NCBI GenBank assembly: GCA_029834535.1 | Contig: JAQMWT010000565.1 | Span: 57,953-121,952, forward strand | Length of the DNA stretch: 64,000 nucleotides | Source of the DNA: Chrysophaeum taylorii | Lineage: Eukaryota; Sar; Pelagophyceae; Pelagomonadales; Pelagomonadaceae | Direction: 5' to 3' | Shown: piece after piece, positions 25,610-37,213 of the stretch | How the letters are laid out: each line of letters begins with the position of its first letter | How positions within the stretch are numbered: position 1 is the stretch's first letter | Made by a program: the position numbers and the translations under genes | Notes under the pieces: model-generated | The model's database searches: none | What the model was told of the DNA's origin: nothing | The model's input: only the letters and a program-made list of their open reading frames with translations

Positions 25610-26389
25610 TCACTTCCGACACACACCTTGTGCACCTTGCGACCATGAACTACAAACCCGAGAGGGAGGAAGGAAGGAAGGAAGGAGCCACCTACTACCT
25701 ATTCGGAGTGCTTTTTTGAGATTAATGTGAAGAATGGCGCAGCGCCGTAATCGGCGACTCTCGACAGTCGTCATTGGCGCACACCCAGATGCTGCTGCTG
25801 CTGAGATGCGTGAAGGAGCGGCGTACGAGGCTCGGTGCTGCACGGCCAGAAAACCCGGGCTCTCTCGAACGAATACATTTTGTTGTCGCACGGCGGCGGC
25901 GGCGCTAGGGTCTACTCTCGGGGCGTCCGTTACGCGTACTTCTCCACGCTTGATGTCACGGCGTCTGCGACAAATAATAAGCGCGTCGGCCACAACTCGC
26001 TCACCGATGTTTGCGCCGTTGACGACCTCGACCCTCTCGCCGTTTTTCCAAAAATGAAAGGAGGGGACGGCCCGGACGCCCTCTCTTTTCATAAGTGAAG
26101 ACGCGTCGGCTGAGCTGTCGCCCGTTACTTTGTAGAAGAGCGTGTCGGTGTACTCTTCGCTCAGTTTGTTCACTTTGGGCTCCATCACTTTGCACGGGCC
26201 GCACCACGTCGTCGCGAAGTCGACGACGACGAGCTTGTCCTTGGCGGCTTTCTTGACGGCGGCGTCGAACGCTCGCTCCGACGAGAGTTCTTTCATCGCG
26301 TGCAGCTTCAACGGGGCCGGTCGGACCGGCTGCTGCTGGAAGCCGCACGCACCGCTGGCAAGGACGACCACGAGTATAAAGGACCGCAT
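25610..26389 (-). CDS. Thioredoxin with plastid-type presequence
   Basis: ATG 26389 starts a signal peptide (MRSFILVVVLASGACGF) ending in a GFQQQP motif typical of heterokont plastid leaders. The thioredoxin domain spans about 33-125 with the active site WCGPC (Cys63 and Cys66), the cis-Pro region RAVPSFHFWKNGERV, and the final strand VVNGAN. It would be a stromal dithiol-disulfide reductase. After about residue 128 the frame runs on for some 130 residues with no thioredoxin similarity (CRRRRDIKRGE...). At 26004 the minus strand has a good splice donor, GTGAGC, right after the end of the fold, so the true gene may splice there into a short last exon whose acceptor I could not fix. Thioredoxin identity is certain; the C-terminus is not. 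Confidence 0.85.
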   Translation of the reverse strand: MRSFILVVVLASGACGFQQQPVRPAPLKLHAMKELSSERAFDAAVKKAAKDKLVVVDFATTWCGPCKVMEPKVNKLSEEYTDTLFYKVTGDSSADASSLMKREGVRAVPSFHFWKNGERVEVVNGANIGERVVADALIICRRRRDIKRGEVRVTDAPRVDPSAAAAVRQQNVFVRESPGFLAVQHRASYAAPSRISAAAASGCAPMTTVESRRLRRCAILHINLKKALRIGSRWLLPSFLPPSRVCSSWSQGAQGVCRK

Positions 26390-26664: not shown

Positions 26665-28257
26665 TCACTCACTCACTCGCCGAGGGCCCGGCAGGACGCA
26701 GCGCGAAGCATTAGGCGAGACGAGGCCCTTGATGGTGCCGAAGGCCGTGGGGCCGTCGTCGCAGATCCAGGCGCGTTCGGCGCCGAAGTGGTCGGCCTGG
26801 ATGTCGACGTTGTAGAAGTGGAGACCGCGGCAGGGGTTAGAGGCGTTGCAGCGTATGACGCCCGCGGCCTCCGGCCAGTAGCCGCCGGTCGCGGTGACGT
26901 TGTCGAGGGTGATGTTAACGACTGTTGTTCGCGGGTCGGGCGCTGGCCAGATGCCGCTCCCCTGGCCCGTGGGCTCGAGCTGCTGCTGGACGCCGATGTA
27001 GACGGGCCAGAGGAAGCACAAGAAGTCGTAGGTTCCACAGCTGAAGTCGGCGATGTCGTCGGTGTCGTCGCGCCGCGCTGTTTCGGGATTAAGGAGGCGA
27101 CGGCGGCGGCTTGGGAGTCCCTTCGCCCTCGCGGCCTTCTCGAATTCCAGCCAGCCGTCGGGAAAGGACGCCTTGTCGATCGAGATGTTTGCGTAGGTGA
27201 TGTTGGCGATGAGAGCCGCGCACGGCGATACGCCAGGCCTGTCGCAGTCGTCCTCGGCGACGTCGGGTTTCACGTAGACGCCCTTCAGCGGGCTGTACAT
27301 CCGAACGTCGGCAAAGAGGACATCCTTGACGCAGGCGTCGTCGCGCGAGGGGTGGACAGAGCCAACCGAGATCCCTGCACCCCAGACGGTGGTGAGGTTG
27401 CTTACTGTGACGTTCCGCGTGCACCAGCTCCACAGCCACTCGTCCTCCGCGTCGCGGCCGCGGTGGTGGCCCTCGTCGTCGTCGTCGTCGTCGTCTATCA
27501 CGTCCCGAATAATCTTGTCGAGGAGGCGGGTCCTCTTCGAAGGCTTGACGGCGATGGTGTCGTCCCAGTTGGATACGACGCAGTCCTCGACGAGAATATC
27601 TCTCCCGGCGACGTCGATGCCGTCCGTGTTAAAGGGGAACATGGGGAGCGAGGTTTGGGTGGTCATGGAAAGCTGGGCGCGCCAATCGACCAGAATGGTG
27701 ACGCGCGAGATTCTCGCCGTTCTCGTAAATTCGCCGAGATAGATGTTGAACCTCGGCGCGTCGAGGAGAACGAGGCCGGAGACGGCGACGTCGACGCAGT
27801 TGTCGAGCCGGATCAAGACGGGTCGCTTCGCGTCGCCGAGCTGGTTAAGGAGAAAGGCCCACCACCACCGGTGCCCCTGGCCTGCGATGGATCCCGAGCC
27901 CTCGAAAGCGATCCCGACGGTGTCGGAAGCGCCGAACAAAGGGAGATAATCGCCGCCGTACTCGCTCGGCCACGCCTCGATCGCGTCCGACGCGACAACC
28001 TGGCCCTCGATCCGCACCGTCACGTACGGTGCGAGGTGCGAAAATGATTCGTTCGCGGGAATCATGTACCATTGGGCATTCGCCGGGAACACGAGCTCCG
28101 AAAACGCCGGCGCTGCCAAAAGACCTGCCGCGAACGCCAGCCCGTTCCTCAGCGCCACCTCGGTGCTCGAGTTGTCGGGGATGCCCCCGTATTCCACGAT
28201 ACTATGGCTCCTCCGGCTCGCCGCCGCGCCGTACGCCAACAACAGCAACAACTGCAT
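26665..28257 (-). CDS. Glycoside hydrolase 28 (polygalacturonase-like), secreted
   Basis: 530 residues with a signal peptide (MQLLLLLAYGAAAS) and a beta-helix architecture. GH28 landmarks: NTDGIDV (about 212), the Asp pair in NWDDTIAVKPS (about 232), GISVGSVHP (about 290) and KGVYVKPD (about 325), standing for the family RIK motif. The usual GHG before ISIGS reads GAG here, so the conserved catalytic-site His is replaced by Ala. GH28 enzymes hydrolyse galacturonic-acid linkages in pectin-like polymers. An acidic DDDDDDD stretch and a basic SRRRR loop are lineage-specific insertions. It could act on matrix polysaccharide of the cell itself or of prey; activity may be altered. Confidence 0.8.
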   Translation of the reverse strand: MQLLLLLAYGAAASRRSHSIVEYGGIPDNSSTEVALRNGLAFAAGLLAAPAFSELVFPANAQWYMIPANESFSHLAPYVTVRIEGQVVASDAIEAWPSEYGGDYLPLFGASDTVGIAFEGSGSIAGQGHRWWWAFLLNQLGDAKRPVLIRLDNCVDVAVSGLVLLDAPRFNIYLGEFTRTARISRVTILVDWRAQLSMTTQTSLPMFPFNTDGIDVAGRDILVEDCVVSNWDDTIAVKPSKRTRLLDKIIRDVIDDDDDDDEGHHRGRDAEDEWLWSWCTRNVTVSNLTTVWGAGISVGSVHPSRDDACVKDVLFADVRMYSPLKGVYVKPDVAEDDCDRPGVSPCAALIANITYANISIDKASFPDGWLEFEKAARAKGLPSRRRRLLNPETARRDDTDDIADFSCGTYDFLCFLWPVYIGVQQQLEPTGQGSGIWPAPDPRTTVVNITLDNVTATGGYWPEAAGVIRCNASNPCRGLHFYNVDIQADHFGAERAWICDDGPTAFGTIKGLVSPNASRCVLPGPRRVSE

Positions 28258-28374
28258 TGTTTTTGCCTCGATGTCTGCTGATCCAATCAGAATGTTAAGC
28301 TCTTCGCTGCCGTTATCGATTATATATCCCCGATAGCCCCTTATTTGTCTCTCGATTTATAGCAAGTCCAGGCC

Positions 28375-28506
28375 AGTAAGTTCACCTAGTCCCAATCTCT
28401 AACCCCAGCAAGTTCACCTGTTCCCGTTAAGTTCACCTCGTCCCAATCTCTAACCCCAGTAAATTCGGCGTAAACCCAATCTCTATAGTTCGGCGTAAAC
28501 CCACAC
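28375..28506 (-). repeat. Helitron-related remnant copy B, left part (minisatellite)
   Basis: An array of AAGTTCACC and CCCAATCTCTAACCCC units, the inverted counterpart of the copy A minisatellite. It continues beyond the retrotransposon at 36997; the two halves were one sequence before the LTR element inserted. Confidence 0.7.
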
Positions 28507-28511
28507 CCACT
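28507..28511. repeat. Left target-site duplication CCACT
   Basis: CCACT directly precedes the 5' LTR and is repeated directly after the 3' LTR (36997-37001). Copy A of the host repeat keeps the undisturbed sequence CATCCACTCACCCCACTC at about 19085-19102 (reverse strand), confirming the empty site. Confidence 0.95.
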
Positions 28512-28847
28512 TGTGGCGGCAACTCCCGCCTCCTAAGGCTTACCCCTCTTCTAGGGCCCCCCCTTATCAGGGGCACCCTACTCCGTTCCGAGGATGTCAG
28601 AGTTTTCTCTGACATCATCTTCTTTTTCCGTGACATGTGTCACCCTGATTTCTGTTTTCGATTATCCTTGATCATAAAGCAACAGCCGATCCTCAAGTTG
28701 AGAGGACCAGGCGCAGGAGTTGTTTGTGGTCGCGTGGCGGGAGAACGGCCATCCTCGTCCAGTGATCCCACCAAGGGCACGGACGCGATCGGCGAGCCAG
28801 GATTCGAAGGCACGCCAGGTAGCCCCTAAAATTCTCCTTACGCCACA
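28512..28847 (+). repeat. 5' LTR (336 bp)
   Basis: Begins TGTGGCG and ends CGCCACA, a 7-bp terminal inverted repeat with TG...CA ends. The sequence right after it (GG then TGGTGGAGGATATGAG, from 28848) starts like a primer-binding site, TGG complementing the CCA end of a tRNA; the tRNA was not identified. Confidence 0.95.
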
Positions 28848-28889
28848 GGTGGTGGAGGATATGAGATAAAGAAAGATCCCGAACATACT

Positions 28890-29990
28890 ATGAGGGATGA
28901 GTATAGCTGCCGCCCGGAACCGAATTTGGACGGGACGATCAGCATGGATAATAGGAAGATGAGCGTACCGACGTTAAGGATACGAGCTCAATGTTTCCTG
29001 AGGAAGAAACCGCCAGAGCGGAAAGAAGTACAATTCCGACCCCGAACCACGGATTTATTGGCCAACCGAGATTTAATTTACGTTTGGTCGGAGTTTTGGC
29101 AAAAAGACGACGAAGGCGTCGATATTTCGATAGAAGAGACGATTGAGCCAGTTCGGATAGACTTGGGAGCACCAGTCGCCTACAGGGACGATCCAGAGGT
29201 ACTAGGACCTGCCGAACTGACGCCAGAGAGAGACAAAGATAACAAGAGCCCCAGTCGAAGTTCGCGCCGGCACAGACGACGCCGATCGCGCGACGACGAA
29301 TACGACGGAGGCCGACACCAATATAATTCGAGTTTTTTGAGCGCAACGCTCACATTTACGACCCCTTGCGGTCAACACTTACCATTAGGAGTGACGGTGT
29401 ACCCGAACACGGACACCCGCACCGACGACGCAGCCGACGCCCTTGCCGCGGCCGCATTCGAAGATCTTGCTCGCCCACCGATGGACGAGCCACCCAACGA
29501 CGTGCTGACCAATCGTCGGTCTTTGGCACAGATTTATGAGCAGATGTCGAGCGATGAGCTCGAAGATTCGAGCGAGGAACTTGAAGCTACACGATACTGG
29601 GAAGGCGATTCAGATTCGGAAGATGAAGAAGCTACACTTTGTGAACCAGTGTCTGCGTTAACGTTATTTGACGAGTCGTCCATGGACGACCCACCGTTTA
29701 TTTTTGATGAGGAAGCCCTCGATGCCATCGGCTTATCTTTGGACCCTCCAGAGACGACCGCTGGCGACCGAACTGGCTGTGAGCCAGACATGAATTTCTG
29801 CAGTGATAGCTCGTGCGCGCATTCGACTGATGAGACGATGACCAGCGCGAGTATTGCAGACGACGATTTTACGACAGAGTTGACGTCGGGGACGACGCCA
29901 TCTTTTCCTGCGGACCCCCCCCCGAAACGGTTTCGATTACTACGGATCGAGACACGGATACGCCGCCGGAAGAAAAGGATAGATTTATGA
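28890..29990 (+). CDS. Retrotransposon ORF1, gag-like
   Basis: 366 residues from ATG 28890, about 40 bp after the LTR. It is strongly acidic in the middle and C-terminal half (SSDELEDSSEELEA, SDSEDEEA) with a basic C-terminus (RIRRRKKRIDL). No CCHC knuckle was seen. Position makes it the gag equivalent. It contains FLRKKPPERKEV and SEFWQKDDEG, a pattern that recurs at the start of ORF2. Its stop overlaps the ORF2 start as ATGA at 29987-29990. Confidence 0.7.
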   Translation: MRDEYSCRPEPNLDGTISMDNRKMSVPTLRIRAQCFLRKKPPERKEVQFRPRTTDLLANRDLIYVWSEFWQKDDEGVDISIEETIEPVRIDLGAPVAYRDDPEVLGPAELTPERDKDNKSPSRSSRRHRRRRSRDDEYDGGRHQYNSSFLSATLTFTTPCGQHLPLGVTVYPNTDTRTDDAADALAAAAFEDLARPPMDEPPNDVLTNRRSLAQIYEQMSSDELEDSSEELEATRYWEGDSDSEDEEATLCEPVSALTLFDESSMDDPPFIFDEEALDAIGLSLDPPETTAGDRTGCEPDMNFCSDSSCAHSTDETMTSASIADDDFTTELTSGTTPSFPADPPPKRFRLLRIETRIRRRKKRIDL

Positions 29991-31576
29991 AGAAGATTAG
30001 CAGCGTTCTCAAGTGTGACGAAGACGAGCAGACGTGGAACCTGCAGGATTGGTGGACGAAAGCTCGGAATTTCTTGCTGAAGAAGCCACCAGAACAACCG
30101 CGCAGCTGCAGACTCAAAGCCGCAGCTGACACGGAACCGATCGCCGATGCTGATGAGGATCAGCAGGCGACGAATGAATTTACAGATGCATTCTGGAAAG
30201 ACGAAATGAATGATTTATGGGAGGGGTCCTTTGCTTCCGTGAACTACGAAGACCAGGATCCCCTACCAGCACTGATTCCCTCTGAGATTGTCTTGGAGGA
30301 AGAGCGGAAGCCGCCAGATAAAGAGGCTGCCGCGAGCATTATGGCGAAGACGCCAACAACAGATAATACGAAAGCTCAAGCCGCGGTATCGATGCCCAAC
30401 CCCGGAGATGAGCGATTCAGAGCCCGATGTGCTCACACTTCGTTGACGCCGCGAGATGGCAAGACGATCGAAGATGATTTGATTACCCTCAGTTGTTTAG
30501 ATACGGGTACTCTAACGTTTATAGCCTGTCACATCTACAGGAATCGTGACGGACCGAAATTCTCGACGACCATCGGTGTCGATGGAATGGCAGATGTTTC
30601 TTATATTTGCCGAGAAATGGTCAAAAAGTTGACCAAAGATCAGTTGATTTTCGATGAAGGCGAACTTCCGATTAAGCGCAAGCTGTACGGATCAGGGTTG
30701 AATACGACGACGATCCATCGTTGGATCGCCCTTCGGGTCGCTTTCGCCGACGACTTCGCTGCCCCCATTGTTGCTATTGTAGCCGATACGAATTATCTGT
30801 TCCTGTTGGGAGGGCGCGATATACGAGTTTTAGGAGCCATCGTGGATTTTCCCCATGATCGGATCTGTTTTTGTCGAACCCAAGTCGTCTACGGGCGCAA
30901 GAAGATTAAAGTTAAGGATGAACGAGTCGATGCACCAATCGTGACCTTTCGGTCTATTTACGATCGAAATCCGATAACCGTACCGATTTACAATCATCAA
31001 CACGATGCCTTTCGGCAGAGTCTCGACCTGGTCAAGACTCGAGTTTATGCTCGTTTGAGCACGATTAAAGATCTCCGAAGCCCGCCGCCGGAACGTAAGG
31101 TAGCCATGGCTACGCGGGGACATGCTACGACCAAATTCTCCCCAGCTCCGGGAGAAGACGCGCGAGAAGTAATCGCTTATGCCGCGCGCACGCTTCAAAT
31201 CGAGCCCGGTCGAACGTACAATCTACCGGTTATTTTGTCGAAGCCTATGGAAAAAGGACAGGTTTTCGTCGCTACGTTTGCTGAGAACGAGCAGTTGGGA
31301 GTTGTCGAAGGAATGTGTTCTTCTTGCGAAGAGCGCGACCGGTCCGCTGCTCGGGTGGCAGTTACTGCCACGGAAGAAGTGCCGACGATCGTCACTCAAG
31401 GCGAAGCCCTTGCGATTGGTGATATCGTTAGGTACGAAGATGAGTTGAACGTCTCTACGATCAACGAACTTACGAAAGAATGTGAAGAAGGATACGACAA
31501 GGGGAACCTTTCTTTCACCGTTTCTGTCGCTAGTCATTTGACGCGATGCGACGAATCTCCCCGCCGATGCTGCTGA
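29987..31576 (+). CDS. Retrotransposon ORF2, retropepsin-like protease region
   Basis: 529 residues. The N-terminal part (FLLKKPPEQPRS, then DAFWKDEMNDLW) resembles the ORF1 start. Residues about 180-300 fit a retroviral-type aspartic protease fold: STTIGVDGMADVSYICREMV, where the family has the active-site D-T/S-G-A, and LFLLGGRDIRVLGAIVDF, the second conserved strand-helix. The site reads V-D-G-M-A rather than D-T-G-A, so the enzyme is unusual or the alignment is offset. The C-terminal region (330-529) is uncharacterised, perhaps a linker or scaffold. It overlaps ORF3 by 31 bp in another frame. Confidence 0.65.
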   Translation: MKKISSVLKCDEDEQTWNLQDWWTKARNFLLKKPPEQPRSCRLKAAADTEPIADADEDQQATNEFTDAFWKDEMNDLWEGSFASVNYEDQDPLPALIPSEIVLEEERKPPDKEAAASIMAKTPTTDNTKAQAAVSMPNPGDERFRARCAHTSLTPRDGKTIEDDLITLSCLDTGTLTFIACHIYRNRDGPKFSTTIGVDGMADVSYICREMVKKLTKDQLIFDEGELPIKRKLYGSGLNTTTIHRWIALRVAFADDFAAPIVAIVADTNYLFLLGGRDIRVLGAIVDFPHDRICFCRTQVVYGRKKIKVKDERVDAPIVTFRSIYDRNPITVPIYNHQHDAFRQSLDLVKTRVYARLSTIKDLRSPPPERKVAMATRGHATTKFSPAPGEDAREVIAYAARTLQIEPGRTYNLPVILSKPMEKGQVFVATFAENEQLGVVEGMCSSCEERDRSAARVAVTATEEVPTIVTQGEALAIGDIVRYEDELNVSTINELTKECEEGYDKGNLSFTVSVASHLTRCDESPRRCC

Positions 31577-32895
31577 GCACGGTGCAGAAGGACGCTATGA
31601 CCGCTATGACGGACAAGTCCACCCTCAAACGACCTGAAGGCAGCGACGATTTCGCTCGAAGGTCAGAAAAAGATGAAAAGAAATGCCGCGAGATCACCGA
31701 AGCGGAGATCCGCCGCCGATATGAAAAGGTTCAATGGCTTCCAATCACTTATCGCAAGGTGGTGATGCTGTTCAGTGGAGCCGGAGGCAGTACTTTAGGT
31801 CTCCAACGAGCCAACGAAACGTGTGGGACGTCGTTTCGAGTCGTGTTAGCACTCGATGCGTCGGACACCGCCAACCAGATCCACCACAAGAACTTTCCGA
31901 ATATTCCTGTGGTGCAGCACACATTGTGTGGTCGCTATGTTACAACCTTACGGTTGATCGAATCTTATTTACCCTACGCGGAATGGTCGTCGTCGATGTG
32001 TGTCGCGTCGCCACCCTGCGTACACTCCGCTCTGTGCAACTTGACTTCCAGAGATGTTGGGAAGGGAGTCACCGCTACCCACTGGACGATGAAATTATGC
32101 AAGATGGCTGGTTTCTTCATGTGGTTGATAGAGCAGGAGGCTTCGATTATTTCTTACGTTGCACGTTTGCACCCTTACGTTTACGTCGTCAATTTTTACG
32201 ACATAACTCCTAGTTTGATGAGCTGTCGCGTGCGATTGTTGGTTTCCAGCCATCCGCTCCATTTACGCGTAGTTCCAAAGACTTGCAAGAATATGCAGCA
32301 AAAGTTCGCCGCAGCACTTGGTTACGCCGACGAACGACATTTACTTCAGATGAACAATTTAGGATCATCACGAGCCGCGACAGACGCAGCTTATACTGTT
32401 ACGCGTGTCCCGCTTCGCGTAGGACCGCACCGTTCCGATTACAGATCTCTGAATCTGGAAATGACTTCGGAGTTGCTGACGATGCCCCCTGATTTTGATT
32501 GGGCCGGCTTCTCCAGGACGACCTCGTTGAAACACTTGGCGTCCGTCGTGCCACCTGACACGATGGCCTTATTAATGCTCGATCTGCACAACTCTGTGAC
32601 CAAGGAATTTCACCTGAGCGGCGAAGCTTTGCCGTCAGCGTTGAGTCCTGCAGACCGACCGTTTGATTATTATTTACAAATTGATGAAACCACCCTTCGT
32701 CACGTCCAAGTTCCGCTGTTAAACACGCGCACACGTGTCATACGATGGGTGTCGACTGATGATCTTCAAGATCGCACCAAATGGAAACCTCCAGAGGTAC
32801 CGTTGATTCCGCCTGCAACAGATGAGCCGGGGACGTCTCATGCTTCTTCTGCTGGGCCCCCGACAACCAAATTTAGACGTTCCGCCAGATCCTGA
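31546..32895 (+). CDS. Retrotransposon-encoded cytosine-5 DNA methyltransferase (ORF3)
   Basis: 449 residues from ATG 31546. C5-methyltransferase motifs appear in order: motif I VVMLFSGAGGSTLGLQRA (about 70-87), which binds AdoMet; motif II region ALDASDTANQIHHKNFPN (about 102-119); motif IV ASPPC (about 153-157), with the catalytic Cys; a Glu in WLIEQE for motif VI (about 198); motif VIII-like SCRVRLLV (about 226); motif IX LNLEMTSELLTMPPDF (about 303-318); and motif X-like SVVPPDTMALLM (about 336-347). No extra reader domain was seen. It should methylate cytosine in DNA, possibly the element's own copies. Methyltransferase capture by retrotransposons is known in dinoflagellates and charophytes. 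The stop is TGA 32893-32895, with a second in-frame stop TAA at 32917. Confidence 0.9.
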   Translation: MRRISPPMLLSTVQKDAMTAMTDKSTLKRPEGSDDFARRSEKDEKKCREITEAEIRRRYEKVQWLPITYRKVVMLFSGAGGSTLGLQRANETCGTSFRVVLALDASDTANQIHHKNFPNIPVVQHTLCGRYVTTLRLIESYLPYAEWSSSMCVASPPCVHSALCNLTSRDVGKGVTATHWTMKLCKMAGFFMWLIEQEASIISYVARLHPYVYVVNFYDITPSLMSCRVRLLVSSHPLHLRVVPKTCKNMQQKFAAALGYADERHLLQMNNLGSSRAATDAAYTVTRVPLRVGPHRSDYRSLNLEMTSELLTMPPDFDWAGFSRTTSLKHLASVVPPDTMALLMLDLHNSVTKEFHLSGEALPSALSPADRPFDYYLQIDETTLRHVQVPLLNTRTRVIRWVSTDDLQDRTKWKPPEVPLIPPATDEPGTSHASSAGPPTTKFRRSARS

Positions 32896-33088
32896 GCGAG
32901 ATCGGGAACCGAAGATTAAGAGCGAGCCGAGTGTTCGTGTCAAAGGCGAGAGGATCAACAAAAGCCACCCGGAAGTGAAACTAAAATACGAGAAAAGTTC
33001 GATGTGCCATGGAAAGATGCGCCGCGCGATGCCGAGGGTGCACCACTGCCGCAGACTCCTGAGCATGTCAAGGACAACGAAGCGATGA
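32822..33088 (+). CDS. Short linker ORF bridging methyltransferase and reverse transcriptase
   Basis: 88 codons from ATG 32822, in a third frame, overlapping the end of ORF3 by 74 bp and running 85 bp past the point where the RT frame becomes protein-like. Its stop overlaps an RT-frame ATG as ATGA (33085-33088). The middle (PKIKSEPSVRVKGE, HPEVKLKYEK) reads like a natural continuation into the RT-frame segment FDVPWKDAP at about 32998, so a frameshift at the AAAAG near 32993-32997 is an alternative to reinitiation. Confidence 0.5.
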   Translation: MSRGRLMLLLLGPRQPNLDVPPDPERDREPKIKSEPSVRVKGERINKSHPEVKLKYEKSSMCHGKMRRAMPRVHHCRRLLSMSRTTKR

Positions 33089-34728
33089 AAGTTAAAATTC
33101 CTACGAAGGAAGAAGTTGACAAGGTTGTGCAGGAGCTGGGAATTCCTGACAATCCGCACTTAGATGACGAGGCGAAACTGATGCTCCGTCACTGTGTGCA
33201 ATATTCTTGGGCCTTTTTCGACCCGATTATGAGACCTGTGGACTCGCCTCCTGTGTCTCTACGATTCAAAGACGCGAATCCGCGACCGATTAAGATGACG
33301 CCCTACCGATTGACGCCTGCGAAGCTCGATTGTCTCCGCAAGCAGATCAGCGAGTGGTGCCGGGATGGAGTCATTCGTCCGGCCAACTCACCTTGGGGCT
33401 TTCCTGTGTTGATGCTTCCGAAGAAAGGAGCTGAGATTGGAACGTCAAACGCGTTCCGTGCTGCAGTTGACTTACGTCAGCTCAACGATCAATTGGTCAA
33501 TGACAGTTGGCCAAACATTCGACAAGATGATGCTTTAGCCTTTCTCGCGATGAGACGATGGCGGACATGCATTGATATTAGATGGGGATACCACAACCTT
33601 CGTCTGGATCCGGCAGCGCAGGACGCTGTCACGATGGTTAGCCCACTTGGCGCTCACAGTTTCTTGCGATTACCTCTAGGTGTGAAGACAGCCGGAGCTC
33701 TTTTCTGCAAGCAAATGGCGAGCGACCTTTCGAAATGGATGTATCAAGACTTGGTTGCGTTTGTTGACGATATTATGATGGGATCCGACGATCTTCATCG
33801 ACATTTACAAGTTTTGATCGAAGTGATGTGTCATTTGGCACAGAGAGGGTACAGCGGTCGAACCGCGAAGTTCCACCTTCTCAAGGATGATATAGAATTT
33901 CTGGGACACATTTCTACCCCAGAAGGCTTGAAGCCGAATCCAAAGACGCTGGAAGCACTGCAGAAGATGCCGATTCCAGGTACTTTACCGAATACTTCCC
34001 CGAAGACCCAGATACGCTCTTTCATCGGCATGAGTAATTACTGCCGGCGATATGTGAAGGGCTACTCGAAGATTGTGGAACCGTTGAGACGATTATGCCT
34101 CGAAGGTGTAAAGTTCGAGTGGACGCCCGAGTGTCAGAAAGCTTGGGATACGATTATTGAAGCTTTGGTTGATTCCCGTGGAGTCTACCACGCCGATTAT
34201 GATCTGCCTTTTCAGATCCGATCCGATGCTTCCAAGGATGGACTTGGAGCATATCTCTTCCAGATTGTCGAAGTCAAGGACGATGCCGGAAGAGTGACTC
34301 GAGAAGAACGAGTAATTGAATACTGGAGCCGAGCTGTGCCGAAGGAGATGCGGAATTATGAGCCCCGTCGGCTAGAGCTGCTGGCAGTTATACTTTCTCT
34401 AGAGCACTTTCGAGCCTACATCGAAGGGCACCGGACTGTTTTGGAGACCGATCACCGAAATTTGACGTTTTTACGTAAGGCGACGCACTCGTCTGGGCAG
34501 CTTGCTCGTTGGGCGATGCGCCTCGCCAATTTTGACCCTGAACTTGGTTACAAGCCGGGAAAGTCACCGGGAATGAGTATCCCTGACTGTCTCTCCCGCA
34601 ACCCGATTGATCATGTCATCGAGACTGACGAGTTTGGAGAACCTTTGAACCACGCGTATTTAGTGTTCCAAGAGCTTCCCGACCTGTTGATGACCGAGGA
34701 GTTCCCGTCTCTGGCTGCCACTTCATAA
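33085..34728 (+). CDS. Retrotransposon ORF4, reverse transcriptase-RNase H
   Basis: About 547 residues from the ATGA-overlap ATG at 33085; the frame is open from 32920, with a GTG at 33004. The RT domain shows SPWGFPVLMLPKKG, AAVDLRQLNDQL, TCIDIRWGYHNLRLDP, HSFLRLPLGVKTAGALFCK, the polymerase box VAFVDDIMMGSDD and FLGHISTPEGLKPN. The RNase H domain follows, with FQIRSDASKDGLGAYL, a Glu in RRLELLAVI and an Asp in ETDHRNLTFL, ending near IPDCLSRNP. All expected catalytic residues are present. The stop and next start overlap as TAATG at 34726-34730. Confidence 0.95.
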   Translation: MKVKIPTKEEVDKVVQELGIPDNPHLDDEAKLMLRHCVQYSWAFFDPIMRPVDSPPVSLRFKDANPRPIKMTPYRLTPAKLDCLRKQISEWCRDGVIRPANSPWGFPVLMLPKKGAEIGTSNAFRAAVDLRQLNDQLVNDSWPNIRQDDALAFLAMRRWRTCIDIRWGYHNLRLDPAAQDAVTMVSPLGAHSFLRLPLGVKTAGALFCKQMASDLSKWMYQDLVAFVDDIMMGSDDLHRHLQVLIEVMCHLAQRGYSGRTAKFHLLKDDIEFLGHISTPEGLKPNPKTLEALQKMPIPGTLPNTSPKTQIRSFIGMSNYCRRYVKGYSKIVEPLRRLCLEGVKFEWTPECQKAWDTIIEALVDSRGVYHADYDLPFQIRSDASKDGLGAYLFQIVEVKDDAGRVTREERVIEYWSRAVPKEMRNYEPRRLELLAVILSLEHFRAYIEGHRTVLETDHRNLTFLRKATHSSGQLARWAMRLANFDPELGYKPGKSPGMSIPDCLSRNPIDHVIETDEFGEPLNHAYLVFQELPDLLMTEEFPSLAATS

Positions 34729-36620
34729 TGTCGTTTATTACGACCGAACTGCCGGAAGACGGAGACGAAGACCCTGAAAAGGATCCGATGAAATTGGCTA
34801 CGTCTCACGCTACGAGACAACGTCGGAAGAACCGTGCGCGTGATGAGCCACAGATCTTCAAGGACGCAGCCGCTTACAAAGATTATATCGATAAGATACC
34901 CGATAATATGACGCTCGCTGAGATCGCACGTGAGCAAGAATCTGATGCTACGTGCGAGGATATTCGCTACCGAATGGCCCAAGGTCAGACGCCGCGACGT
35001 TCCCGAGCGAACGAACGATTCGAAGTCGTTAAAGATGTTCTTTACCGCATTTCTGCTGATTTGCACCCGATGATTGTTGCACCTGCTACGTTGCGCAAAC
35101 GCATTATTCGACTCTATCATGACACTCCGGTTAACGGTGGTCATATGGGACGTCACAGTACCGTCCAGGCTATCCAAGAACGATTTTGGTGGCCTCACAT
35201 GTCGAACGAAGTTGGAGTCTTCATTGCTGAATGCTTAGTTTGTCAGAAAGCTCGTACGCCTGAGCCGAAACGAGCTGGACTCTTGCAGCAGCCCGTCTAC
35301 GATGGTGATGGTGCTGTTCTTTGCATGGATTTATTTGGACCCTTGCCCAGCGCTGGTCCCGAGACGTATCTTCTAGTATTTTTTGATCCGTTCTCGCATT
35401 TCTTGATTCTGGATGTTTTGAACGATAAGACTGCTGAGTCTGTCCTCGAGTCTTTTGTCATTAACATTCTCCTCAAGGGCTACTTGCCCCAGATGATTCG
35501 TACCGACAACGGTAAAGAGTTCGTGAACAAGTTGATGCGCGAGTTTTGCCATCTCTTTAACACACGATACCAAACTACGATTCCTTATCATGCCCAGTCG
35601 AACCCGGCTGAGCGTGTCAACCGATTTATCAAGGCCTTCCTCCGTGCTTGCCTTCAAGGCCGGAACATCACGGATTGGCCTGACTTTGCTCATTATATTG
35701 CGTTTTGCTACAACCGCAAGTTTATTCCAGGCACGCAGATTTCTCCCTTTATGCTGCGCCTGAACCGTCAGCCGATGCTACCGACTGACTACACGCTCAT
35801 GGATTTTGATACACGATTATTGCCGAAGACTCGCTCTGATGCAGTCGCCGAGACTCGCGAACGATTGAAATATTATACAAAGATCGTCCGCGAGGCTCGT
35901 GATAAAGCTTTGAAGAAACAGCGATTGGCTTACAATGCTGATCATGTTGATGTTGAATACAAGGAAGGATCGCACGTTTTGCTCTACATCCCTTTCCTTC
36001 AGAACAAACTTCGACCGGAATGGCGAGGGCCGTTTATTATCAAGGAACGCCTCTCCCCGGTCACCTATAGGATTGAGTCTCTCGACTCTCCGCCCGAAGA
36101 ACGACGTGTTCATGTAAGTCAGATCACGCCGGTGATGGTACCTCCGATCGTTGATCAAACCATCCGCAAACCCGAAGAAACCTTCCGTGATGATTATCAG
36201 CACGGTAAGTTTGTTGTTTTCCGGATTCCTGACCGGAAGCGCTCTGATTGGCGCAAGAAGATTTATGTTGCCGAAGTTTACGAGCCTTACGATTACCAAA
36301 ATGATCGTGTCGCTCTACATTTCTATTCCGATTTGGGTCCGAACGATGATGTCGCTTATTTCAAGCCGACCTCTCACCTTTCGCACCGCAAGCTCAAGCC
36401 CGAATTCAAGGACGTTGAAGGTCGAAGTTTCACCGACAAGTCCCGAATTTCCTCCAACACAACTCCTTGTGTCACGGATTTCGCTCCGCACGAGATTGAC
36501 GTGTTGGTCCCCAAGTTTACTCTACGCAGTGGTCGAGTTCCTGAACCGATCATCACCCGCGTTTACCAGAAGATTCGTTCACGAGATGCTCGTAAGGTGA
36601 AGCCGCGCTCCTCGCGCTAG
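34728..36620 (+). CDS. Retrotransposon ORF5, integrase with GPY/F-type tail
   Basis: 630 residues. The HHCC zinc module is at about 126-170 (RLYHDTPVNGGHMGRH, then AECLVCQKA), the DDE catalytic core has Asp in VLCMDLFGPLP (about 200), Asp in MIRTDNGKEF (about 259) and Glu in NPAERVNRFIK (about 295), and the GPY/F-type module is KLRPEWRGPFIIKERLSPV (about 425-445). About 150 further residues resemble no chromodomain I could recognise (FRDDYQHGKFVVFRIPDRK region). It catalyses insertion of the cDNA, producing the 5-bp duplication seen here. It ends 40 bp before the 3' LTR. Confidence 0.95.
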   Translation: MSFITTELPEDGDEDPEKDPMKLATSHATRQRRKNRARDEPQIFKDAAAYKDYIDKIPDNMTLAEIAREQESDATCEDIRYRMAQGQTPRRSRANERFEVVKDVLYRISADLHPMIVAPATLRKRIIRLYHDTPVNGGHMGRHSTVQAIQERFWWPHMSNEVGVFIAECLVCQKARTPEPKRAGLLQQPVYDGDGAVLCMDLFGPLPSAGPETYLLVFFDPFSHFLILDVLNDKTAESVLESFVINILLKGYLPQMIRTDNGKEFVNKLMREFCHLFNTRYQTTIPYHAQSNPAERVNRFIKAFLRACLQGRNITDWPDFAHYIAFCYNRKFIPGTQISPFMLRLNRQPMLPTDYTLMDFDTRLLPKTRSDAVAETRERLKYYTKIVREARDKALKKQRLAYNADHVDVEYKEGSHVLLYIPFLQNKLRPEWRGPFIIKERLSPVTYRIESLDSPPEERRVHVSQITPVMVPPIVDQTIRKPEETFRDDYQHGKFVVFRIPDRKRSDWRKKIYVAEVYEPYDYQNDRVALHFYSDLGPNDDVAYFKPTSHLSHRKLKPEFKDVEGRSFTDKSRISSNTTPCVTDFAPHEIDVLVPKFTLRSGRVPEPIITRVYQKIRSRDARKVKPRSSR

Positions 36621-36660
36621 CACCTCGCTGGGGCAGCTCGAATTCTTACCAGGGGAGTCC

Positions 36661-36996
36661 TGTGGCGGCAACTCCCGCCTCCTAAGGCTTACCCCTCTTC
36701 TAGGGCCCCCCCTTATCAGGGGCACCCTACTCCGTTCCGAGGATGTCAGAGTTTTCTCTGACATCATCTTCTTTTTCCGTGACATGTGTCACCCTGATTT
36801 CTGTTTTCGATTATCCTTGATCATAAAGCAACAGCCGATCCTCAAGTTGAGAGGACCAGGCGCAGGAGTTGTTTGTGGTCGCGTGGCGGGAGAACGGCCA
36901 TCCTCGTCCAGTGATCCCACCAAGGGCACGGACGCGATCGGCGAGCCAGGATTCGAAGGCACGCCAGGTAGCCCCTAAAATTCTCCTTACGCCACA
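36661..36996 (+). repeat. 3' LTR (336 bp)
   Basis: Identical in all positions I compared to the 5' LTR; even the chance 64-codon frames inside match residue for residue. A short purine-rich AGGGGAG precedes it (36651-36657), a weak polypurine tract candidate. Confidence 0.95.
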
Positions 36997-37001
36997 CCAC
37001 T
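36997..37001. repeat. Right target-site duplication CCACT
   Basis: Matches 28507-28511. Confidence 0.95.
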
Positions 37002-37213
37002 CACCCCACTCCCCTCTGAGCTGGTCGCTCTCACCCCCGCCAATCCAAGCTGCTTTGATCCGCACACGCCGCTAAGCTTTGAGTTTACTCTAAAAGCCCC
37101 AGTAAGTTCGCACTTGGTCTCAGTAAGTTCACCTGGTCACTAAGTTCACCTAATCCCAATCTCTAACCCCAGTAAGTTTATCTGGTTCCAGTAAGTTCAC
37201 TGGCCCCAGTAAG

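Follow-up and report, generated by a model that had tools for sequence, protein, structure and literature searches.

Does the LTR retrotransposon at this locus in the pelagophyte alga Chrysophaeum taylorii encode a cytosine-5 (C5) DNA methyltransferase (MTase) that belongs to the element, and if so, what might an element do with such an enzyme? The initial annotation described an apparently young and intact Ty3/gypsy-type element with a full-length MTase open reading frame between protease and reverse transcriptase (RT), and we examined its structure, its relatives in the same genome, and the affinities of the putative enzyme. The window, a stretch of 64,000 nucleotides, is part of contig C565 in a 70.8-Mb assembly of 697 contigs. 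A protein encoded on contig C634 of this assembly is 100% identical to C. taylorii CTAYLR_008533, and the source of the window, a member of the Pelagophyceae, bears out the stramenopile-type host that had been supposed from the letters.

Structure and state of the window element

The features of the element are as follows (window positions, strand in brackets):

28507..37001 (+): Ty3/Gypsy-type LTR retrotransposon including its target-site duplications; the element itself is 28512..36996
28507..28511 (no strand): target-site duplication CCACT, 5' copy, 5 bp
28512..28847 (+): 5' LTR, 336 bp, TG..CA, identical to the 3' LTR
28890..29990 (+): gag-like ORF1, 366 aa, assigned by position
29987..31576 (+): ORF2, 529 aa, with a retropepsin-like region by eye (VDGMAD ... 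LLGGRDI)
31546..32895 (+): ORF3, 449 aa, C5-cytosine MTase domain, from profiles and motifs
33004..34728 (+): reverse transcriptase and RNase H (PF00078, PF17917, PF17919)
34728..36620 (+): integrase (PF17921, PF00665, PF22938)
36661..36996 (+): 3' LTR, 336 bp, identical to the 5' LTR
36997..37001 (no strand): target-site duplication CCACT, 3' copy, 5 bp

The LTRs are identical at 336 of 336 bp, have TG..CA ends, and are flanked on both sides by CCACT, which together argue for recent movement of this copy. The order of RT, RNase H and integrase determined with Pfam is that of Ty3/Gypsy elements, and together with the LTRs, the duplications and the profile matches described below it upholds the assignment to a Ty3/gypsy-type element with an MTase between a protease-like region and RT. 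No Pfam family scored above cut-off in ORF1, and the Pfam search of the protease-like region of ORF2 gave no match.

The description of the element as young and intact holds only in its first part. The coding region is divided among five overlapping or adjacent ORFs, and comparison with a relative at another locus (L030; 99% identity over 8.1 kb) shows that the coding match starts only at L030 position 1610, whereas the L030 frame begins near 173. The window copy is thus missing some 1.4 kb at the 5' end of the coding region found in L030, and is young but damaged, with identical LTRs, an internal deletion and a split frame. Similarly, an ORF is present at 31546-32895 as described, but it is a piece of a Gag-Pol frame rather than a full-length MTase gene: its start methionine is explained by the splitting of that frame in the window copy, most of the listed ORF3 relatives align from residue 5, and those that were read run on upstream in frame. 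This insertion probably moved with proteins supplied by other copies.

The element has a G+C content of 0.513 compared with 0.587 for the rest of the window. Short TAAGTTCACCT-like repeats flank it on both sides (28368-28487 and 37132-37200), and two ORFs to its left, 25610-26389 (-) and 26665-28257 (-), resemble by eye a thioredoxin and a pectin-degrading glycosidase. No tRNA genes were found within the 64-kb window (ARAGORN, bacterial code).

The methyltransferase domain of ORF3

The Pfam family PF00145 matches ORF3 with 24.7 bits against a curated cut-off of 22, covering only residues 71-126 (motifs I and II); it scores 18.4 bits, below cut-off, on the 3063-aa fusion protein of L030, and the NCBIfam dcm match to ORF3 is weak (0.0017). 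Fifteen PADLOC families match at E <= 1, eight of them below 1e-4 and the best, of DruM2 type, at 1.3e-9; four are labelled 'DNA cytosine methylase', nine 'type II methyltransferase', and two DrmMII. PHROG contributes matches to two MTase families, at 3.7e-7 and 1.5e-6. Because PADLOC and PHROG consist solely of prokaryotic and phage families, a bacterial or eukaryotic origin is not decidable from them. The likeness to bacterial DruM2 and type II C5 methyltransferases extends over motifs I-IV plus a C-terminal part, although those are restriction or defence enzymes and not parts of retroelement polyproteins. Profile-profile comparison with 30 DNMT2 proteins gave 96.6% (E 6.7e-10) over motifs I-IV, with SPPC aligned on SPPC, whereas the RT used as a control against the same profile gave 1%; DNMT5 alone gave no profile match to the Gypsy MTase family. 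Judged by profile, ORF3 is a C5 MTase domain, well beyond chance.

Motif I of ORF3 is LFSGAGGSTLGL and motif IV is ASPPC, and the alignment to the DNMT2 profile sustains the earlier reading of these two blocks. Later motifs were read by eye as, in order, IEQE (VI), SCRVRLL (VIII), SLNLEMTSELLTMPPDF (IX) and LASVVPPDT (X). Canonical C5 MTases have ENV at motif VI, a Gln in motif IV, and QxRxR at motif VIII, and the canonical ENV and motif IV Gln were also seen in sequences examined in this analysis; ORF3 departs from these with IEQE in place of ENV and with a motif IV that lacks the usual Gln. Nonetheless ASPPC, IEQE and RVR are unchanged in 11 of 11 aligned family copies, including the motif IV Cys. 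For the second half of the protein, the PADLOC family PDLC00026 (2.5e-9) matches two separate stretches of ORF3 (each at E <= 1), and the better one aligns residues 246-353 with profile positions 219-320 of 336; this is the expected place of motifs IX-X and so supports the second half, although in a copy from a distant subfamily (L037) the better stretch is N-terminal. The DNMT2 profile scores the second half no higher than shuffled sequence, and the reading of the later motifs therefore comes from one PADLOC family and from inspection by eye. Predicted structures of this MTase and of the Copia-type MTase described below have a pLDDT of about 30.

Copy number, linkage and selection in the Gypsy family

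A search of the C. taylorii genome with ORF3 gave matches in all 94 scored candidates (of 1171), with 76-100% identity, and 24 of the 94 listed matches carry internal stops. When 100-residue pieces from the MTase start, the RT, and the MTase end were used, 150 of 150 scored candidates matched in each case (687, 758, and 584 candidates, respectively), so that there are at least 150 genomic matches. Linkage was counted for the first 118 of the 150 RT matches, which are 96-100% identical; the last 32 form a block of 95% identity whose MTases fall outside the listed matches, and were left out. An MTase is present in 108 of the 118 close RT copies: in 82 an MTase-start match lies about 1.44 kb upstream of RT (13 of these places being taken from the ORF3 search), in a further 25 the MTase end lies 0.57-0.62 kb upstream, and in one the MTase was identified by direct reading. 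In the other ten it lies outside the listed matches, at a contig end, or is truly absent. The matches and their linkage to RT rule out a chance or one-copy insertion of ORF3, the outcome that would have undone the original proposal.

In 34 of 70 stop-free copies (full or partial) the MTase lies in an open frame of at least 900 aa, the longest being 3067 aa, and with stops read through this rises to 42 of the 94 listed copies. In two relatives, L030 and L032, one frame runs through 9.2 kb (3063 and 3067 aa, respectively), and in the L030 frame Pfam recognises, in order, MTase (below cut-off), RT, RNase H, and integrase. The natural form of the MTase in the best preserved copies is therefore an in-frame part of a Gag-Pol ORF of about 3060 residues. 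A 1233-aa RT-integrase frame is common to five copies (C331, C388, C122, C486, and C14), hinting that a frame change between MTase and RT is common to copies that are still spreading.

Such a family could carry the MTase as a passenger remnant without a function of its own, as the broken window copy and the internal stops elsewhere might suggest. We determined dN/dS (NG86, medians over copy pairs) for 24 copies out of the at least 150 (the window copy, three loci, and 20 fetched), comprising a near subfamily of 19 and a far subfamily of five. Between subfamilies the median is 0.091 for the MTase (95 pairs; dS 1.58, where values near 1.6 are close to saturation), compared with 0.066 for RT (90 pairs), 0.060 for integrase (60 pairs), and 0.147 for gag/protease (94 pairs). 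Within the near subfamily the values are 0.220, 0.288, 0.167, and 0.342 for MTase, RT, integrase, and gag/protease, and within the far subfamily, from 9-10 pairs, they are 0.085, 0.421, 0.267, and 0.284; raised values in some copies are due to misaligned pieces outside the MTase. The MTase is under purifying selection about as strict as that on the core enzymes RT and integrase, and this constraint, with the invariant catalytic-motif residues and the linkage to RT, largely refutes the passenger interpretation, which we regard as very improbable.

A Copia-type family, host enzymes and possible roles of the domains

Scoring 123 of 474 candidates gave at least 57 genomic matches to PF00145, of which 55 lie in places belonging to a second, Copia-type family and two are host genes. 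Two regions of this family were fetched, L042 (1805-9652) and L043, on contigs C96 and C314. Each has a gag-like ORF followed by a Pol ORF (1952 and 1868 aa, respectively) that carries DGGAS, by eye a protease-like motif, then PF00145, integrase (a weak match, below cut-off and in L042 only), and PF07727 RVT_2, which is the Ty1/Copia-type order. The MTase directly follows the protease-like region, the identical slot to that in the Gypsy family; it has LPCQ, ENV, and, far downstream, a motif-X-like ANAVP, and its matches are to phage and type II MTases. All 150 scored candidates of 318, many of them fragments, match the Copia-type MTase pieces, giving at least 150 matches, and an MTase lies 3.0-5.2 kb upstream in 67 of the first 95 of 150 RT matches. 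Among distant Copia RTs (47-56% identity) none of 19 has an MTase among the matches listed, and MTase-free Copia lineages thus seem to coexist; the remaining 36 of the 150 RT matches were left out of the count. The core of this MTase has a dN/dS of 0.131 (28 pairs, eight copies). A Copia-type family with its own selected C5 MTase in the same genome is new here, as judged against the literature searched.

The best solved relatives of ORF3 by sequence are DNMT2 proteins, with PDB matches of E 0.058-0.14 only, and no DNMT3 chain is among the PDB matches up to E 10. In a shallow tree of 24 sequences over motifs I-VIII, built without a DNMT3 reference, the Gypsy MTase falls beside DNMT2 on a long branch (80/78 support, not starred) and the Copia-type MTase falls apart from it, weakly beside a phage MTase. 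Both placements are weak. A single clade for the two MTases was not rejected (p-AU 0.177); their profiles do not match each other, and on these comparisons two separate captures appear likelier. Neither MTase had a match among 5.8 billion proteins, a search confined to subjects of 0.55-1.75 times the query length and hence one in which long fusion proteins were outside the range. Two scans of viral contigs by sequence pattern turned up no relative. With ORF3, tblastn gave no phage match at E <= 1, and weak, short matches to MTases of bacterial plasmids (best E 3e-3, at most 41.5% identity). The host C5 MTases detected among the 123 of 474 candidates scored, where introns and divergence may hide others, are DNMT2 (L001 on C634; PDB 1g55, E 3.9e-39) and DNMT5 (L002 on C621; PDB 7r76, E 3e-143). 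In the pelagophyte Aureococcus, DNMT5 is tied to heavy methylation of linkers, and DNMT6 is placed in Pelagophyceae (PMC9998398).

Capture of MTases by retrotransposons is, as initially noted, already published for dinoflagellates and the charophyte Klebsormidium, with purifying selection on the captured domains (de Mendoza 2018, PMC5890265). The closest known system is KnitGypsy-Dnmt3 of Klebsormidium nitens, which shares the Ty3/Gypsy domains, a C5 MTase in the Pol frame, several copies, and purifying selection, but has a DNMT3-related MTase and repeats arranged like those of a DIRS element (PMC5890265); the C. taylorii family differs in its LTR-element-LTR structure, in showing no DNMT3 affinity in our searches, in IEQE at motif VI, in its stramenopile host, and in having at least 150 matches. 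SymbioDIRS-Dnmt3 and SymbioLINE-Dnmt of Symbiodinium likewise have C5 MTases, hundreds of copies, and purifying selection, but are DIRS and LINE elements with DNMT3-type or orphan MTases, compared with the LTR Gypsy and Copia elements here (PMC5890265). In yeast, CG methylation was obtained with both of the SymbioDIRS domains tested, whereas the Klebsormidium Gypsy domain gave no methylation, a result its authors call inconclusive (PMC5890265). Sarre 2025 (PMC12344493), with de Mendoza 2018 as its source, assigns some DNMT3 members to DIRS elements and to LTR elements of the Copia type; since the cited paper says Gypsy for Klebsormidium, 'Copia' may be a slip, and the C. taylorii Copia-type family has its own divergent MTase. 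Published work also describes DAM- and DCM-encoding Gypsy and DIRS elements in stramenopiles among others (PMC6338049), and a brown-algal DNA transposon whose methyltransferase is of another type, N4C or N6A (PMC12477816). Chrysophaeum taylorii is named in none of 20 papers listed in a literature search largely outside subscription journals. The new independent capture proposed at the outset is probably separate from those published.

We somewhat favor the explanation that this is a multicopy Ty3/Gypsy family whose selected C5 MTase, made within Gag-Pol, would be freed by the element protease, packaged in the particle alongside RT and integrase, and would methylate the newly made cDNA ahead of integration or at about that time. 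In Cryptococcus, DNMT5 acts in maintenance, and the host DNMT5 may then keep the methyl mark. Methylation of cDNA by a packaged MTase has been proposed for DIRS elements (de Mendoza et al., PMC5890265). Counting against our explanation are the lack of a CpG footprint (see below), the odd motifs IV and VI, and the restriction of the PF00145 match to motifs I-II. It is an improbable alternative that the MTase acts instead on host or rival DNA (viruses, other elements, or silencing loci); bacterial defence MTases are among the profile matches, and Morozov 2019 speculates on antiviral roles of such domains (PMC6338049), but a location within Pol, with protease on one side and RT on the other, suggests that the domain acts in the particle. 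A broader proposal, that Gypsy and Copia elements independently took different non-DNMT3 MTases into the same slot and that these serve as de novo methylases whose marks DNMT5 copies, seems to us doubtful. A retrotransposon-borne DNA methylase reverses the usual silencing story, and this case adds a stramenopile example, in which a single small genome harbours two such LTR superfamilies and the host set detected includes no obvious de novo methylase. Should the domains be active, C. taylorii could reveal directly whether retroelements lay down methylation on themselves and whether that methylation is preserved by DNMT5.

The initial annotation also suggested that self-methylation could hide new copies, and here the mutational record gave no support. 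CpG observed/expected ratios are 1.21-1.35 in six Gypsy-family relatives, 1.25 in the window element, and 1.27 in its flank, so that none of the seven copies shows CpG depletion, unlike SymbioLINE, which is CG-depleted (PMC5890265). Private C-to-T changes in 13 copies number 44/9598 at CG, 27/7013 at CA, 21/6025 at CC, and 30/6254 at CT, or 4.58 per 1000 at CG versus 3.49-4.80 in the other contexts. The count in 19 copies, six of which were dropped as partial or misaligned to give the 13, shows no rise at CG but a rise at CT, and pairwise and third-position C-to-T counts give no consistent CG excess. The target may therefore be non-CpG, RNA, or DNA whose mark is unmaintained, or the method may be too weak. 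The fold could accordingly have been kept as an RNA- or nucleic-acid-binding or RNA-modifying module (with genomic RNA or the tRNA primer as conceivable substrates) rather than as a DNA methylase, a reading that the DNMT2-like neighbours in PDB and in the tree and the non-canonical motif VI also favor. However, the DNMT2 affinity covers motifs I-VIII only and on a long branch, the PADLOC and PHROG matches are to DNA methylases (if from prokaryotic and phage libraries only), and the motif IV Cys is invariant, and we consider this reading rather unlikely. In two copies of the Copia-type family, CpG observed/expected is 1.02-1.05 and TG/CA is 1.13-1.14 versus 0.91 in the window flank, a mild hint of deamination or an effect of codon use.
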